From a virus: a stretch of 24,861 bases of DNA. Below the pieces are notes generated by a model. That model did no database searches. It saw nothing but the letters and a program-made list of their open reading frames with translations, and was not told the origin of the DNA. Below are positions 1 to 7,830 of this stretch, one piece after another; within the stretch, counting starts at the first letter, position 1; each line of letters starts with the position of its first letter. Location: the IMG/VR virus record IMGVR_UViG_3300007960_010139, positions 1 to 24,861 of that record. One strand, 5' to 3'. Both the position numbers and the translations under genes were made by a program.

Positions 1-821
1 ATAACCTTGGGATCTGCCGTGTACTGAACATTTACGAGGTCAGAGTGAGTAACGCTGGCGAAGGTCTGGCCATCGTTGGCGAACTCAACGGAGGTGATGT
101 TGGTGTCGGCAGCAACTCCAGTGTAGGGACTTGTAGAATTGAAAGCCTGCTTGTTTTCTTCCTTGCCAACTGCCTCAGCGAACATCTGTGCGAAGAACGG
201 CTCAAGAGCAACAATCGAGTCCTCATCCAGCTCTGCAGAAACCTCGTCAATTGCCATGAGAGTCTTGCTGCTAAGGGTGTTGTTCTCGAACACGACAGAA
301 GTCTTGCTTGCTTGAGTTGCACCTTGGTTGGTTAGCCAAGAAACCGAAGGGCCACTTGAACGAGTCGGCATCACCATCGTGTTGGAGGACATTGGCACAA
401 CCGTAGCAATATTACGAATGATCGATGCCTCTTCTACGATACGGGCAACCTTATCATAGGTAAGCTGGGGAACGAGAACACTACCAGCAGTAGCCTCATC
501 GCCATCGTTACCAGCTGCGCCTCCCGAACGACCATAGTGCTTCATTCGCCAAGCGCGAGTGATCTCACCTCCAAACTCACGAAGAGCAGTATTCTTGACC
601 GGAGTCTCAGCAGAGAAAACCTTCTGCCCCATCGGCAGTTCCTTATCAAGCTGATCACATCGAGCAGAAAGACGCTCAATTGCACCCTTAAGCTCGTCTA
701 CCTCGCTACCAACATCACCAAGTTCCTTAGTACGAGCGGAAATTCCCTCAAGAACCTCCATCATGGTATGAAGATTTTCGTCCTCACCACCGCGAACAAT
801 AACATTCTTTTCTGAAGCCAT
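1..821 (-). CDS. Major capsid protein, HK97 fold (3' end cut by window edge)
   Basis: This would be the shell protein of the phage head. The first 273 codons are visible and the frame is open to the left edge. Residues 1-65 form a charged, probably coiled-coil delta-like segment. A glycine-rich linker follows (about 98-113), and then the body opens with AGSVLVPQ at 112-119, typical of HK97-type capsid proteins. Later segments such as VVPMSSNTMVMP and SWLTNQGATQASK also fit the family. The ATG at 821 is preceded by GGAAAGGAAATATT, a good ribosome binding site, and by a TTGACA promoter. It lies directly downstream of the prohead protease, the usual HK97 order, and the protease probably removes the N-terminal segment (inference). 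The C-terminal half cannot be assessed. Confidence 0.93.
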   Translation of the reverse strand, partial: MASEKNVIVRGGEDENLHTMMEVLEGISARTKELGDVGSEVDELKGAIERLSARCDQLDKELPMGQKVFSAETPVKNTALREFGGEITRAWRMKHYGRSGGAAGNDGDEATAGSVLVPQLTYDKVARIVEEASIIRNIATVVPMSSNTMVMPTRSSGPSVSWLTNQGATQASKTSVVFENNTLSSKTLMAIDEVSAELDEDSIVALEPFFAQMFAEAVGKEENKQAFNSTSPYTGVAADTNITSVEFANDGQTFASVTHSDLVNVQYTADPKV

Positions 822-926
822 AATATTTCCTTTCCAATTTATGGGTTATTATTTTTAATATCTAAATCTTATTCAACTTGGCGATGTATGTGATGCATTA
901 TTATTGCCACATACCGACCTTGTTTT

Positions 927-959: not shown

Positions 960-2705
960 CTAGGCTTTTGACTTCTTAATTAAATTTTGAAGATACTTAG
1001 ACTTAACTTCATCTGATTTTTCGCCGTCGAGCTTGAGGCTTATTGATTCAAGAATGGACCTTGCAGCTGTTGCTAAATCTGAAATTTCATAAATCTTAGG
1101 GCTTTCTTCAGTTACGGCCTTTTCTTCCTTCTCAACCTTCGAGAATTGGCGAGATATGCTTGAGGCTAGATCTATTGCACGAAGCCAGTCTGAATTCTCC
1201 TGTGGATCCTCATCCAAGCTCATGGTGGTGTCATCCTCTTCGGGAATTTCTACTTCCATCCCATCTTTTTCAGAATCCTCCATCATGCCCTTCTCTTCCA
1301 TCATTTTGTCAATCTCAGATACAACATCCTTCAGCATGTCTCGGCATCGGCATAGACGATCCTTATTCTCACGCGAAACCTTGGCGCCAATCCTTCCTTG
1401 AACATTTCTATCGCTTGTTATGGAGGCTGCTTCCTCTGCCGCCAAGTTGACGAATTCATCGTCAAGTTCAGGAGCTTCTTCCTCTGAAGCTCGATCCTCT
1501 ACTTGACCATCCTCCTTTGGAGCGTCATCTGCCTGATCTTTGTCCTCTTCTTCAACTTCACCAAATCCATCAGATTCAACAACTTCCATAACTGCGGAAA
1601 CGATTGAATATGTAAAGTCCTTGCTTGCTTTTTCAATGACGTATAGCAACTTGTCTTTCACAGACTTGCCATTCTCATCTTCTTCACTTTCGTCCATTTC
1701 ATAATTTGACCGAGAAGAGATGTCCTCCAACCGATCTTCATCTATTGTTTCAGCTGAAAGCAAAATTTCTTGCTCCTCACCAATCTGCATTACTTCCTCT
1801 GCATCTGAAGAAGCACATTCCAAGCCAAACTGGTTAGAGCCCTCATATTCTTCACTCAAAGGAATAGACTCCATTTCTTCCGAATTGGATATAAAAATGT
1901 CTTCTTCAATTTCTCGACTATCCAATGGAAAATCTTCTTTGGAGGAATGATCTTGATTAGATAGACGGTACGCAACATTAAAGTCGTCTTTATTTTTGCG
2001 ATTCCGAACCAATTTCTCCATGTCTTCAGAGGATAGAACTCCCCGCTGGACAGCTTCAATAAGGGCATTGGGGTCCGAAGGTACAGGGACTGCTGAGAAC
2101 TCTAGAAGATCATTTTCTAGAAAATCGAAACCAACCGTATAACCATTTTTGTCTACTATGGTTTCGTATTTTAAAGGAATCCATCCAATAGACCCAGCCC
2201 GTAGAAATCCTTGCTCATACATCTTGCGCACCTTATCCGCAAAGGGATAAAGGTCCTCGGAACAAAATTGACTCCACAAACGAAGAACTGGCTCGCCATC
2301 TACTTTCTCAACTCGCCAATCCACATGCTTTCCAATCGGAAGGGAACTATAATCGTGACACCAAAGAAACTGAGGGTTCTTACTAAAATTCTCAAAAGAC
2401 CAGCCGTCGTTTCGCACCCGATTGCCATCCCTCTTTACTCCCTCGGTGGAGGCAATAAATTGAACAATCCCCTCACCCATGTCCGGCTCTGCTTGGGCTC
2501 TCTTAATGGAAATTCCTCTTTCCAAAAGAACCCTCTTGCTGGACTTAAGATCTCCTATCAAATCTCCAGATGCTACGGAAATCCCTAAGCTTTCAATCAA
2601 GCCGGATCGAGTAATTCCACTGCCCATTCCGTCTTGAATGGATTCGGGTTTTGAAGCATTCTCTTGGTCGAAAATGTCATCTAGGGTAACAGATTTATCA
2701 GCCAT
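960..2705 (-). CDS. Prohead protease (HK97 gp4/U35 type) with long acidic scaffold-like tail
   Basis: This is a serine protease that matures the phage prohead by cleaving capsid and scaffold parts. The protease domain spans about residues 75-220. The probable catalytic residues are His117 (CHDYSSLPIG), Ser172 (AGSIGW) and Glu202 in LEFSAVPVPSDPNAL, the signature C-terminal strand of the family. The protein is 581 residues, whereas ordinary members are about 200. The extra 360 residues are strongly acidic and low in complexity, with runs of E and D. They most likely act as an internal scaffold that is digested after assembly (inference). The ATG is preceded by AGGTGAATAT. It lies between the portal and capsid genes, as expected. 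Confidence 0.9.
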   Translation of the reverse strand: MADKSVTLDDIFDQENASKPESIQDGMGSGITRSGLIESLGISVASGDLIGDLKSSKRVLLERGISIKRAQAEPDMGEGIVQFIASTEGVKRDGNRVRNDGWSFENFSKNPQFLWCHDYSSLPIGKHVDWRVEKVDGEPVLRLWSQFCSEDLYPFADKVRKMYEQGFLRAGSIGWIPLKYETIVDKNGYTVGFDFLENDLLEFSAVPVPSDPNALIEAVQRGVLSSEDMEKLVRNRKNKDDFNVAYRLSNQDHSSKEDFPLDSREIEEDIFISNSEEMESIPLSEEYEGSNQFGLECASSDAEEVMQIGEEQEILLSAETIDEDRLEDISSRSNYEMDESEEDENGKSVKDKLLYVIEKASKDFTYSIVSAVMEVVESDGFGEVEEEDKDQADDAPKEDGQVEDRASEEEAPELDDEFVNLAAEEAASITSDRNVQGRIGAKVSRENKDRLCRCRDMLKDVVSEIDKMMEEKGMMEDSEKDGMEVEIPEEDDTTMSLDEDPQENSDWLRAIDLASSISRQFSKVEKEEKAVTEESPKIYEISDLATAARSILESISLKLDGEKSDEVKSKYLQNLIKKSKA

Positions 2706-2782: not shown

Positions 2783-4810
2783 TTAATCCGAAGAATTGCA
2801 TTCTGCAAATATAACACAGCTGCATCCTATGTTTTGTTGCTCTGACTCAGCCCCATCGCCGGGGTAATCCAAGCCTGTAGAAAAATTGTCCCCAAATTTG
2901 ATTGTCTGAGAAAACCCCTTGTGATTACTACATCCGCCACTTGACCAAGTTAGATTATCAATCTTATCATGATCCTTATAAAACATATACTTGGCCTTAT
3001 TGTAGGCAGCAAAAATTTCAGTTATTGCTAACGTCTTAGAGCGACCAATTATCAAGTTATATGCTTTTCTAACCCTACTCTTGATCTCTTCTAGGTTTTC
3101 ACCCTCTCCAAGCCCTGCATTTATTTCGTCACGAAGAATACCCTTAGCCTCTTCGCATATTTCAAAAAGAACATCGTATCTATGAGTGCAATACTGAGTT
3201 GCTCTAGAAATTGCTTCGTCTTGCCCTAAAACCTCAACTGCCCCCCCCAGCTCATGCCCCGCTACTGCACACCCCTCCGTGTATGCAGAAACAAGGAAAG
3301 GCATTCCAGATTCAGCAAAATCCCTGCTGTCAATTTTGTCCAATAAATCGTCTAAGTCGTTGCCAAGATTTAAATAATCAACTTCTATCTTCCTTAGCAA
3401 CAAGCTTCTTTGCTTAAGAAAAATTCTCCTCATTTTATTCGTAAATTTACACTCCATACTTCTGCAAATCTTAGTGGACTTATTCCAATTATATGAAGCT
3501 GTACCATTTCCCTTAACTTCATCAATTGGAGAATCAACAAGATCATTCGAGGAGTCCCCGGAGGGCAGCTGAACGGAGTGATCTACAACATCTTGAGCGG
3601 GAACCATATTAACGGGTATAAAATGCTCATCTCCCCAAGGCTCGTCCCGAAGTCCTAAGTTGAGACGCTCATTGATTTGATTTATGCTGAATCCAATTTT
3701 GTGAAGATTCTCTGCTGCCTTAACCCGTTCGTTGTAGTCTACTTGAAGAGCTGCAATGTTTGAAAAGTCGAATTCTATAGAAAGCATATTGTCGATATTT
3801 ACTAGTAATTCTGAGTTGAAAATTTCTTCAATTTTTCTAGCCAGAGGAATCAGGTTTTCTTCGTAGAACATTCTTCTCTGAATCGTGATGCTGGCCTCGC
3901 TAAGCGCACTTGCAGAATCATCATTCAAGTACATTACTGGGACATTATAGGCTCGAGCTATGTCCACCAAGTTCCATCTCCGAGCCTCCAAAAACTCCAT
4001 CTCTTTTTGGCTTGTGCCCGTTGGTTGAAAAGCCCAATCAGAGTTGGTTACCGCAAGGCGGGAAGAAGACCTAGGAGATCCATATGTCCTATACCAGCTC
4101 TGCCTTATTTCCTCTTTCATTTCCTCTGTAAGCTTACCCGGACCCTTATATGACAGTATTCCAGAAGGAAGGCCCCCATTCTTCATTACGCTCCTGTTAT
4201 AAACAGCGGCAGCAAAATCGGTATCGACAGCAAGCCTAGCTACCCTAGATGGACCAACTCCTAAAATTGGATCTTCAGGGTTTGCCGCGTACTTAATGTG
4301 TACAACATCTTTTTTAGGAACATCTACTGTCTCTCTACCCCTCGTCTTAATTCGCCACCCTAACAAATCGTAAATGCTATCACCTTTTATGGGGCAAACA
4401 GCTGAGGGAGGAAGAAGCATAAGAGACCTGGGAATCCCATCTGAATTTCTGCTGTCTACATAAACGTATACATTTCCATGTATGTGGAGCTGGGTTAGCA
4501 GCATATTTAAGAACTCGATCCTATTTTGAACAGGATTTGGGCGAGAGATTAAATTATATACTTTGCCATTTTTAATCTCATCGCCTCTTCTCACAAGGCG
4601 TAAAGGAACTCTACTAAGAGAGCTTGCAATTATATTTATGCATCTAAATACTGCTATGTTTTGATTGTATGGATCTTGAATTCCATGATCAAAAACACCA
4701 TCGCCCTGGAAAGGAAGATCGTCTCCCCTGAGGAAAGCTTGAACCAATGCGGCGTCGGTTCGCTTTTCTCTTGGCACTATGCCAAAGGTTCTCTTTATAC
4801 GCTCAAACAT
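2783..4810 (-). CDS. Portal protein fused to a MuF-like head morphogenesis domain
   Basis: The portal forms the dodecameric ring through which DNA enters and leaves the head. Residues 1 to about 390 match the HK97/SPP1-type portal family: PYNQNIAVFRCINIIA near 47-62, FLNMLLTQLHIHGNVYVYVD near 100-119, and a long helix with LSEASITIQRR. After a Ser/Asp-rich linker (about 410-440), the C-terminal 230 residues resemble the Mu gpF minor head domain, with ITEIFAAYNKAK and a final block ending in GCSCV, which recalls the usual HPxxRC-type ending. At 675 residues it is far longer than a lone portal (about 400-500), which supports a fusion. The start lies just after the TerL stop (TAAGATG arrangement). 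An eight-G run occurs inside the frame near 3241-3248 without breaking it. Confidence 0.88.
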   Translation of the reverse strand: MFERIKRTFGIVPREKRTDAALVQAFLRGDDLPFQGDGVFDHGIQDPYNQNIAVFRCINIIASSLSRVPLRLVRRGDEIKNGKVYNLISRPNPVQNRIEFLNMLLTQLHIHGNVYVYVDSRNSDGIPRSLMLLPPSAVCPIKGDSIYDLLGWRIKTRGRETVDVPKKDVVHIKYAANPEDPILGVGPSRVARLAVDTDFAAAVYNRSVMKNGGLPSGILSYKGPGKLTEEMKEEIRQSWYRTYGSPRSSSRLAVTNSDWAFQPTGTSQKEMEFLEARRWNLVDIARAYNVPVMYLNDDSASALSEASITIQRRMFYEENLIPLARKIEEIFNSELLVNIDNMLSIEFDFSNIAALQVDYNERVKAAENLHKIGFSINQINERLNLGLRDEPWGDEHFIPVNMVPAQDVVDHSVQLPSGDSSNDLVDSPIDEVKGNGTASYNWNKSTKICRSMECKFTNKMRRIFLKQRSLLLRKIEVDYLNLGNDLDDLLDKIDSRDFAESGMPFLVSAYTEGCAVAGHELGGAVEVLGQDEAISRATQYCTHRYDVLFEICEEAKGILRDEINAGLGEGENLEEIKSRVRKAYNLIIGRSKTLAITEIFAAYNKAKYMFYKDHDKIDNLTWSSGGCSNHKGFSQTIKFGDNFSTGLDYPGDGAESEQQNIGCSCVIFAECNSSD

Positions 4811-4811
4811 C

Positions 4812-6251
4812 TTATAAAAATGAGATAGAATCCCTTAGGGAAGCTTCTCCAACTCCAATTTTTACCGAAGATGCAAAGGCTAATATGAATGCATCGGCCC
4901 GATCAGGGCTTCCTATCCCACTTCTGCGCATTTCATCTTTTGTCATAAGCCGCCTTTGCCTAGCCTTACCAGTGAACTTATATTGCCTAATTTCTAGCTG
5001 ATTAGCAAGAATCTCATCTTCTATTATTGAGCAACTCTGTATTGCGTCCTTGCCATCTTCCATCCAAAGCTCGCATCCCAAATTATAATAATCGTCGGGC
5101 ATGTATGACCTGGACCCATTGTGAACCCCACGAACCATCCACCCCTGCTCCACTAATGGGTCCACAACCCCTGATCCACCAAGGCCCGTCTCGTCTACCC
5201 TAAACTCCACAACAGCTTGAGGATCCTCCCAAGACCTGGACCACTTTTCAGCTAACTGAATTGCCCTGCCCACAACTTGAGGACCGTCAGTTCTAGACTC
5301 ACAAACCATATCTAGCATTTTCATGCCCCTACGAACGACATAGACAGTCTCATCAGTCCCAAATCTTGAAACATCTATCCCTATGCATATTGGCTGATCA
5401 AGATCTTCTTCTACTTCTCTCTCCATAGCCATCTGTATCTCTTCTCTACTAAATACGGTATCGTCTGTGCTAGACTGGGGAAACTGACCAAAGACCCTCG
5501 CCTGCACATAGGCCGAATCTTTACCGTACATTTCGATCCACTTTTCCCTGATTGCTCTAACCTCGGGGGTGCCCGAAGTCCGCGAAGAGTCCAGGTAGCT
5601 CACATGCTGTTTATACCAATCCCCCCCAAACCTTTGGTCTAGAAAAATTTTAGCAAACCGGCCAGTCCTTCTTAGAGGGTTGCCAATCACAAGCATTTTA
5701 CGCCTTGGCGTATTCGCACTTCCCTCTAGCGCATCAAAGTTCGCATCATCTACGCCTGAAGCTTCATCTACAACGGCTAATGTATCATCTGCATATTTAC
5801 CGGCCAAACCTTCAGCCTGAGCATTCCCTCCTCCCGCAGAATATTTTTTGGAGGTTGTTCGAGCTACCGCAAACCATTCTTCTTCAGCACCCTTCGCCGC
5901 AATTTTAGTCATTCCAAAATGGAATAGATGCTGGATTAGTTTAGATCTTCTTTGAAGTCTTGATAGCTCACCCCAAAGATTATCTGTTAATGTTTCCTTC
6001 TTAACGGCTGTGCAAATAACTTTTGGATATTCGTGAGTGCAAAGAAACCACCAAATTAAATTTGCTGCTAAAAAATCTTTGCCAACACCCGTACAACCTG
6101 CAATTGCAACTTTTTGATTCTGAGAAGTTGCTCTCATTGCATCGACCTGCCATGGGTCTAGCTCTACATTGAAAACATCTTTTGCAAATTCAGCAGGATA
6201 ATCTCGATATTTTTTAAGCCTTCCTGCTATATCGTCATTTATACTGGACAT
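4812..6251 (-). CDS. terL: Terminase large subunit (packaging ATPase and nuclease)
   Basis: This is the motor that cuts concatemeric DNA and pumps it through the portal. Counting from the ATG at 6251, Walker A is GCTGVGKD at about 52-59 and Walker B is LAVVDEAS with Asp162/Glu163. The RNase H-like nuclease begins with GIDVSRFGTDE (Asp293), continues with FRVDETGLGGSGV, and ends with the metal-binding DRADAFILAF. The length of about 480 residues is normal. An in-frame TTG at 6257 would add two residues. Neither start has a clear Shine-Dalgarno site, and I prefer the ATG. It follows TerS by about 20 bases and precedes the portal, the canonical order. Confidence 0.95.
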   Translation of the reverse strand: MSSINDDIAGRLKKYRDYPAEFAKDVFNVELDPWQVDAMRATSQNQKVAIAGCTGVGKDFLAANLIWWFLCTHEYPKVICTAVKKETLTDNLWGELSRLQRRSKLIQHLFHFGMTKIAAKGAEEEWFAVARTTSKKYSAGGGNAQAEGLAGKYADDTLAVVDEASGVDDANFDALEGSANTPRRKMLVIGNPLRRTGRFAKIFLDQRFGGDWYKQHVSYLDSSRTSGTPEVRAIREKWIEMYGKDSAYVQARVFGQFPQSSTDDTVFSREEIQMAMEREVEEDLDQPICIGIDVSRFGTDETVYVVRRGMKMLDMVCESRTDGPQVVGRAIQLAEKWSRSWEDPQAVVEFRVDETGLGGSGVVDPLVEQGWMVRGVHNGSRSYMPDDYYNLGCELWMEDGKDAIQSCSIIEDEILANQLEIRQYKFTGKARQRRLMTKDEMRRSGIGSPDRADAFILAFASSVKIGVGEASLRDSISFL

Positions 6252-6272
6252 TACCAATGGCCAACTGAGAAA

Positions 6273-6605
6273 TTAACTATCTTCTTCTTCGGGTATAGAA
6301 TTGCCATAAAACATATTAGCCAAAGATATTTCCACAGGCCCTCCATCTCCACCCGAGATTTCCTTCCTCTTAGGAGAGCAATGAGCAACTAAACTTTTCA
6401 ATGCATCAAAACCAAAAGCCTTGTGCCATTCGTGTTCTTGATCATTGGCGATCTTCCAAAGAAGAGCCATTCCTTCGATTGTATATCCATCCAACGCCTC
6501 GGTAAGCTCCTTCGGTCTTCTGCCACCAGATCTCTTGCCAGCAGCGGCTTTGTTACCCGGCTTAAATCGAGTATCCTTCTTGCCTGTAGTATTTTTATCA
6601 GACAT
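6273..6605 (-). CDS. terS: Probable terminase small subunit
   Basis: This is a 110-residue basic protein. Its N-terminus carries TRFKPGNKAAAGKRSGGRRP, resembling the FxPGxSGNPxGRP motif of DUF5681-type phage proteins often annotated as small terminases. The rest is short and helical, with an acidic C-terminal tail. It would recognise the packaging site and recruit TerL. Its position immediately upstream of terL is the main support, since the sequence alone does not show a classical HTH. The ATG is preceded by AAGGGAATAAAT, and the gene starts 2 bases after the RRM gene stop, so the two are probably translated together. Confidence 0.65.
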   Translation of the reverse strand: MSDKNTTGKKDTRFKPGNKAAAGKRSGGRRPKELTEALDGYTIEGMALLWKIANDQEHEWHKAFGFDALKSLVAHCSPKRKEISGGDGGPVEISLANMFYGNSIPEEEDS

Positions 6606-6607
6606 AT

Positions 6608-6877
6608 TTATTCCCTTTTTTTCTCCTTAGGAACTGCAAAGTCGATATGAATTGGTCTTCCATTTAATTCTCTACCCTGTAGCTTGGATCTCCAAGTATC
6701 CTGGTCAGCTCCCAGGGTGTCTAGAGTTACAAATCCAAACCCTTTAAAATTCCCAGTCTTTTTGTCTTTAATTAAATTGATTACAGTTGGCCTACCAACC
6801 TTACAAAAAAAAGATCTTACCTCTTCTTCCTTTATATCATAATCCAAGTTAGCTATAAACAAACGAATTATTGCCAT
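6608..6877 (-). CDS. RRM-domain RNA-binding protein
   Basis: This is an 89-residue protein that is essentially a single RNA recognition motif. RNP2 is LFIANL at 6-11 and RNP1 is KGFGFVTL at 45-52, with aromatic residues where RRM proteins stack on RNA bases. ELNGRPIHIDFA at 70-81 is the usual last strand, and a short basic tail PKEKKRE follows. I chose the ATG at 6877, preceded by GGGAGAAAT, over a TTG at 6907 that adds ten residues outside the domain and lacks a good site. It is the first gene of the packaging operon and nearly abuts terS. RRM proteins occur in some bacteria, notably cyanobacteria, but are rare in phages. It may regulate phage or host mRNAs or act in packaging (inference). 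Confidence 0.85.
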   Translation of the reverse strand: MAIIRLFIANLDYDIKEEEVRSFFCKVGRPTVINLIKDKKTGNFKGFGFVTLDTLGADQDTWRSKLQGRELNGRPIHIDFAVPKEKKRE

Positions 6878-6921
6878 ATTTCTCCCGTAAAACTTGGCCA
6901 ATTGCAAAAATAGGCCATATA

Positions 6922-6937
6922 TAATATTTAAATATTA
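6922..6937. promoter_or_regulatory. 16-bp perfect palindrome in divergent promoter region
   Basis: TAATATTTAAATATTA is its own reverse complement. It lies in the 71-base AT-rich gap between the minus-strand RRM start (6877) and the plus-strand start at 6949. A weak minus-strand promoter, TTGTAT-17-TATATA, overlaps it, as does a TATAAT on the plus strand (6920-6925). It could be an operator for both directions or simply an AT-rich melted promoter core. Confidence 0.4.
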
Positions 6938-6948
6938 AGGATACAAAA

Positions 6949-7248
6949 GTGAGTCAAGTTCGAAAATTCCTAGAAAAAATTGATCCGAGTATATTATGTG
7001 TTGATGGCTATGATGACGCAATAATAGCTTTTTGTCACGATAGGGGATACTACAAGGCAGTTTACGATATCCAAAAAATGATTGAAATATGCAGTGATAG
7101 GGGGAATTTTAGTGCAGATGAAGCAATAGAATATCTTGAATATAACTGCTGGAATGCTTTCCACGGCGAAGGAACTCCTATTTATATCAACCTTATTGAA
7201 GGTTATGATATTTGGGAGTGTCTTCCAGAATCATATCCTCCGGAATAA
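6949..7248 (+). CDS. Conserved phage protein of unknown function
   Basis: This is a 99-residue acidic protein starting with GTG, preceded by AAGGA at 7-base spacing. I recognise the pattern of a widespread small phage and plasmid family of unknown function: a GYDDAIIAF-type start (19-27), a YDIQKMI-type helix, then EAIEYLEYNCWNAF followed by GTPIYI (about 56-80). No catalytic residues are evident. It is one of only two plus-strand genes between the head block and the replication block. The next gene (HNH) begins 36 bases downstream and may be co-transcribed. Function unknown; coding status well supported. Confidence 0.8.
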   Translation: MSQVRKFLEKIDPSILCVDGYDDAIIAFCHDRGYYKAVYDIQKMIEICSDRGNFSADEAIEYLEYNCWNAFHGEGTPIYINLIEGYDIWECLPESYPPE

Positions 7249-7284: not shown

Positions 7285-7830
7285 GTGAATACTTTTCTCA
7301 AAAAAAAAGGAAGAGGTAAGCCCCCTTCCTTTTCAAACATAGTAGTCGCTCAACGAGATATTATTTATAGCTTAGATATACCTATTAACTCTGCAGAGAA
7401 AACCTGTTGGTCCTGCAAGAAGTATTTTTCTTCTAATCTTGAGAAGGCTCACATAGTGGCTTTTAGCAAGGGTGGATCAAACTTGCCGGATAATTATTTT
7501 TTACTTTGTCACAATTGCCATACAAATCAGCCCGATGGTGCTCCTCCTGATTACCAGATCGAATGGCTTCAAAAGAGGCCGCAATTCTGGGAGGTTAGGT
7601 TTGACGCGAATCCTTTCAAATCCGAGTTCGAGCTTATGTCTGGAATAAAGATCCAAGAGTTCTTCGGCCTGATAATCGATAGACATGGGACCTATGGCCT
7701 TCGTGGAGTTTTTAAAAAAACCCTCAAGGGCGGCACCATTGCAAAGGCTGGAATGACATCGGGAAACGCCATGGCAAATGCAGTTCATGCATTTGTCCAT
7801 CTATACCGGAGCGAATACTTAGATAAATAA
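7285..7830 (+). CDS. HNH endonuclease
   Basis: This is a 181-residue metal-dependent endonuclease. Zinc is probably bound by Cys41-x2-Cys44 and Cys75-x2-Cys78. The HNH core runs from KAHIVAFSKGG (His56) through LPDN (Asn70) to CHNCH. The C-terminal 80 residues, with FFGLIIDRHGTYGLRGVFKK, match nothing I recognise and may bind DNA. The GTG start has only a weak upstream site. Its last 46 bases overlap the 3' end of the convergent AEP gene. It lies about 700 bases upstream of terS. HNH proteins near terminases assist cos cleavage in some HK97-like phages, but a free-standing homing-type role is equally possible. Confidence 0.82.
   Translation: MNTFLKKKGRGKPPSFSNIVVAQRDIIYSLDIPINSAEKTCWSCKKYFSSNLEKAHIVAFSKGGSNLPDNYFLLCHNCHTNQPDGAPPDYQIEWLQKRPQFWEVRFDANPFKSEFELMSGIKIQEFFGLIIDRHGTYGLRGVFKKTLKGGTIAKAGMTSGNAMANAVHAFVHLYRSEYLDK

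Follow-up and report, generated by a model that had tools for sequence, protein, structure and literature searches.

Organization of the packaging/head region

The window, i.e. the whole stretch of DNA that was analysed, is a 24,861-base IMG/VR virus record. The RRM gene, the features that precede it and the genes that follow it on the same strand are listed below, from upstream to downstream.

7304–7334, minus strand: terminator-like hairpin with a trailing U run, ahead of the RRM unit; it overlaps the beginning of the HNH gene in antisense (scan match and fold)
6878–6948, minus strand: leader of the RRM gene, with an SD-like GGGAG before the RRM ATG
6608–6877, minus strand: RRM gene (89 aa), opening the packaging/head unit (RRM_1 match, fold model, selection, clade-wide presence)
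6273–6605, minus strand: presumed small terminase subunit, terS (110 aa; position directly before terL, 69–83% identical in relatives)
4812–6257, minus strand: large terminase subunit, terL (481 aa; phrog_2, E 1.8e-36)
2783–4810, minus strand: portal protein with a MuF-like C-terminal part (Phage_portal, E 3.3e-68; phrog_12; weak match to Phage_Mu_F)
960–2705, minus strand: head maturation protease/scaffold-like protein (phrog_80, E 7e-14; phrog_617, E 6e-21)
3–821, minus strand: major capsid protein, truncated by the window edge (Phage_capsid, E 9e-18)

The open reading frame at 6608–6877 starts with an ATG and encodes 89 aa. Its coordinates in the first-pass annotation were right and the strand was corrected to minus (6877 to 6608). 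The same annotation had described it as the first gene of a packaging unit, and this holds: the terS, terL, portal, protease/scaffold and capsid genes follow on the same strand. Upstream of the RRM gene, a 99-aa gene and then an HNH gene are read in the opposite direction. On the far side of the HNH gene is the replication region, which includes a replication-initiation-like gene and a ribonucleotide reductase. The 99-aa gene (6949–7248, plus strand; phrog_13182), located between the RRM and HNH genes, was present in the window only and absent from the relatives.

The RRM gene had also been said to nearly abut the small terminase gene. The distance was as claimed, with 2 nt between the RRM stop and the start of the neighbour, whose SD-like AAGG sits within the final RRM codons; the name of the neighbour is presumed from its position directly upstream of terL. 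Searches of Pfam and PHROG profiles with this protein from four members, at E values up to 5, returned no match. A structure model of the 110-aa protein was helical, with a weak mean pLDDT of 51.

The 89-aa protein

The protein matched Pfam RRM_1 (PF00076) with an E value of 3.2e-13 and a score of 49.8 bits, above the gathering cut-off of 20.7, over residues 6–77 (profile positions 1–70 of 70). No family match was obtained in PHROGs. RNP2 (LFIANL) and RNP1 (KGFGFVTL) are both intact, which agrees with the initial description of a near-minimal RRM with clear RNP motifs. Of the three aromatic residues that stack on RNA, two (F7 and F49) are invariant in the clade described below and the third, F47, is found in four of five members (Leu in L004).

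Structure prediction had been proposed as a check, and an RRM fold was obtained. The AlphaFold2 model, for which 25 viral and bacterial RRMs were used as input, had a mean pLDDT of 79 and the canonical RRM order of strands (E) and helices (H): E3–9, H17–24, E29–37, E44–53, H61–66 and E77–80. It was aligned to solved RRMs in the PDB with Z up to 12.7 and 1.9 Å over 84 residues, and the matches included the RNA-binding RRMs of hnRNPA2B1, HuR and PABP. The solved structures closest by sequence were eukaryotic RRM proteins. In BFVD, Foldseek gave significant RRM matches in giant viruses only.

Between relatives, pN of the RRM gene was 0.18–0.24 versus a pS of 0.71–0.94, which indicates that the gene is under purifying selection. 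A chance open reading frame or frame artefact was ruled out by the RRM_1 profile, the predicted fold and pN/pS. Judged from profile and model, the protein is a genuine single-domain RRM, and RNA binding is expected from its family membership.

Conservation in related contigs

IMG/VR was searched with RRM, terL and terL-alignment queries, and seven further contigs were retrieved. Six of them reach upstream of terL (L003, L004, L006, L148, L149 and L150), the last three being 99.9% identical to one another. L005 starts inside terL and was kept outside the count of RRM presence. The order HNH (reverse)–RRM–terS–terL was found in all six relatives with sequence upstream of terL. With the window included, RRM–terS–terL was present in seven of seven contigs, belonging to five populations. 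The distance from the RRM stop to the next start was 1–8 nt across the clade.

Identity to the window in the relatives was 58–72% for the RRM protein, 69–83% for terS and 80–91% for terL; the RRM gene was thus kept at 58% identity where terL was at 80%. Values of pN between relatives were higher for the RRM gene than for terS (0.09–0.13) and terL (0.06–0.09). On these comparisons the RRM protein is changing faster than both of its neighbours. The order of all common genes is conserved across the clade, and a functional link to packaging therefore does not follow from adjacency by itself.

Two other stretches of the window were recorded in these alignments. A conserved block in the gap between the portal and protease genes (2746–2776; 31 nt at 93.5% identity in L003) is possibly an internal promoter. 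At the capsid-gene end (1–918), the DNA is 92% identical to L004 and L005, versus about 67–76% in the other matched stretches, and the window and the L004 contig share their end position within the capsid gene. The jump in identity and the shared contig end may reflect recombination or an assembly break.

Hairpin, leaders and RNA elements

The terminator-like hairpin stands just upstream of the RRM gene, which suggests that the gene opens a new transcription unit. In the window it folds with −19.3 kcal/mol (z −2.9), and similar hairpins are found at the equivalent place in L003, L004 and L006. The z-scores were −2.4 to −3.2 in three of these four members; the L004 fold was no better than shuffles.

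No motif of the RRM leader was conserved in all five members compared. A conserved operator hairpin was sought there and rejected: a TAGTTTCCCCAA block was common to only three of the five. As no leader element is kept in all five members, autoregulation is not demonstrated. An Rfam search of the region gave no match, and neither a known structured RNA nor a tRNA was found there.

The capsid-gene leader (805–925, minus strand) contains TGCATCG..TACATCGTCAAGTTCA..TAGATTTAG behind a TTGACA-like box; it is conserved in four members, with partial conservation in L148. It is a candidate target of the RRM protein, and is given here only as a lead.

RRM genes in other viral sequences

The next terL relatives among the matches listed were 30–37% identical. 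An RRM gene was sought in 46 such records (among the matches listed, several being short fragments) and none was found. The RRM–terS pairing to which the first-pass annotation had pointed is present in all clade members with sequence at that place and was not found in these distant terL relatives.

A set of 50,697 deposited phage records was then searched. The window RRM gave one match and a generic bacterial RRM query three. The match in Microcystis phage MaAM05 was an Rbp-like protein with two RRMs, whose gene context is unrelated, and was discarded. Two records of ‘Acinetobacter phage MD-2021a’ had RRM matches; the one inspected (L155, CAKLQH020000005.1) looks like bacterial chromosome, with topA, rpmG and rpmB around the RRM gene. 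Among the 50,697 records, no RRM match lay in a convincing phage context, in keeping with the earlier remark that RRM proteins are uncommon in phages.

With generic bacterial RRM queries, 43 more RRM-bearing viral contigs were collected from IMG/VR. The large terminase gene was detected in 14 of the 43 and was close to the RRM gene only in a Bacteroidota-type group (L108–L116) and in L103; in most of these contigs terL was not detected or was far off. In the database check of how often an RRM gene sits beside terS, the two genes were adjacent in the window clade and near each other in the Bacteroidota-type group; elsewhere the RRM gene was mostly not near a detected terminase. In L103 (2784–3155), the RRM gene and terL share a strand and are about 2.2 kb apart, with stops inside the terL match. 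In L098 (879–5261), the order is terL–700-aa gene–RRM, with terL assigned by a weaker match. A general RRM–terminase association was rejected: the independent lineages are too few and short contigs favour closeness, so no enrichment is claimed.

The contigs of the Bacteroidota-type group carry an S24 repressor, a Terminase_3 terL and a terS of the GP3_package type; Bacteroidota as the host phylum is a reading of their proteins. Like the window clade, they have a single RRM_1 gene close to terS/terL. Unlike it, the gene is transcribed divergently from terS, at a distance of 0.2–2.3 kb (e.g. L114:3820–4754), it belongs to a different RRM clade, and the terS type differs. Within the group, RRM identity was 88–100% (median 96%), with pN of 0–0.03 versus pS of 0.26–0.63, and terS identity was 40–50% in most pairs.

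In the tree, the RRMs of the window clade grouped together with full support, on a long branch and apart from the Bacteroidota-type group. Their identity to the bacterial-type RRMs sampled was 27–38%. The separate positions of the two phage groups suggest that RRM genes were acquired by phages twice, separately. The RRM–terminase linkage appears to be specific to the clade, perhaps with one independent case in the Bacteroidota-type prophages, and is not a general rule. No publication describing a phage RRM next to terminase was retrieved in the literature search. As far as the databases and literature searched go, the combination of a phage RRM with a terminase operon is undescribed; the domain itself is ordinary.

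Possible roles of the RRM protein

Phages control translation with RNA-binding proteins of their own. The best explanation, which we put forward tentatively, is that the RRM protein binds single-stranded RNA and regulates phage mRNA at the late stage, in a RegA-like manner. It is preferred because the RRM gene opens the late unit and abuts terS, and because small phage RNA-binding regulators exist. As the opening cistron of the late packaging/head transcript, the RRM gene would probably be translated together with terS. Its product would then bind short unstructured stretches of phage late mRNAs, either in the ribosome-binding regions of its own operon or in leaders, that of the capsid gene among them. 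Once bound, it may set the translation or decay of these mRNAs, as RegA of T4 competes with ribosomes at many mRNAs. The RNP motifs, the RRM fold, the hairpin in four members, the 1–8 nt to terS, the SD-like site of terS within the RRM 3' end in the window, the persistence of the RRM at 58% identity and a pN far below pS are consistent with this. RegA represses translation of about 30 T4 mRNAs (PMC3014915), and when the RRM protein Musashi-1 is introduced into E. coli it represses translation, within an operon too (PMC10942595). Four points stand against regulation of phage mRNA. Simple autoregulation might predict an RNA element in the RRM leader of all five members, and there was none; Rfam gave no match; host-RNA targets would fit the same facts; and the position in the operon could reflect expression timing only.

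A host-directed role is nearly as likely, though still doubtful in itself: the RRM protein would target the host's mRNAs, its sRNAs or its RNA decay machinery in the course of infection. It could, for example, mimic or compete with a host single-RRM protein such as RbpB of Bacteroides. In some bacteria single-RRM proteins such as RbpB are global regulators (PMC11697453). Among the control genomes, single-RRM proteins were found in those of cyanobacteria and Bacteroides, and a Treponema chromosome carries an RRM at 35% identity. However, a long branch separates the clade RRM from the bacterial-type RRMs sampled, and takeover genes are less typically found in a late operon position.

The varied places occupied by RRM genes on other viral contigs, and the faster amino-acid change of the RRM protein relative to terS and terL, would fit an accessory passenger whose function is unrelated to the operon and which merely shares its expression. 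The same spot is kept in all five populations, under purifying selection, and we regard such a passenger as improbable. More improbable still is a transcription-linked factor that would bind nascent late RNA and aid antitermination or the stability of the late transcript; the RRM unit does begin right behind a terminator-like hairpin, but no nut-like or leader element was conserved across members.

A cofactor of packaging or assembly would cooperate with terS/terL by way of an RNA or ssDNA partner, or bind nucleic acid of the packaging site. Some RRMs bind ssDNA, the adjacency to terS is fixed in five populations, and the unrelated prophage group also has an RRM gene near terS. Against this, the 46 terL relatives at 30–37% identity among the matches listed lack an RRM gene, conservation of the whole gene order leaves little weight to adjacency, and none of the known structured RNA families searched was found. 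Support for a direct packaging role does not extend beyond adjacency, and the role is very unlikely. Least probable, by a little, is a dedicated packaging partner joining RNA or ssDNA to terS/terL, with the Bacteroidota-type pairing as a second instance; we know of no RRM in such a role.

Comparison with known systems

Deposited phages contain hardly any canonical RRM proteins, and the window clade represents a phage-specific RRM subfamily heading a late operon. Together with the unrelated prophage group, in which a strongly conserved RRM gene lies near terS, it suggests that RRM-based RNA control operates in some phages.

Like the VIPR-associated (Vipr, or RAMP) phage proteins, the window protein is encoded by a phage, is of an RNA-binding type and has an RRM core; RAMPs differ by a G-loop and thumb and by their YNNGG-repeat RNAs (PMC13142463). 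In the VIPR system, 9–16 tandem YNNGG repeats lie in a nearby non-coding RNA (PMC13142463). When such repeats were sought in the window and its relatives (partial records), the best 10-unit score was 21 of 30 and none was near the RRM gene. A VIPR-type RNA-guided system was rejected: there is no repeat RNA and no RAMP G-loop or thumb, and a plain RRM accounts for all 89 aa.

RegA of T4 is, like the window RRM, a small phage RNA-binding protein, and its fold has been described as RRM-like (PMC7824862). It works through a helix-loop groove and not through RNP1/RNP2 (PMC3014915). Its gene belongs to the DNA replication cluster, beside gene 62, whereas the window RRM gene is first in a head/packaging unit. 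The two proteins are unrelated in sequence: no RegA profile matched the window RRM, for which Pfam gave RRM_1 only and PHROGs nothing.

The bacterial single-RRM proteins (RbpB of Bacteroides, Rbp of cyanobacteria) share with the window protein one RRM_1 domain, a length of about 80–90 aa, RNP1/RNP2 and a short tail. The window RRM differs from them in being phage-borne and encoded in a packaging operon, in forming its own deep clade and in having no Gly-rich tail.
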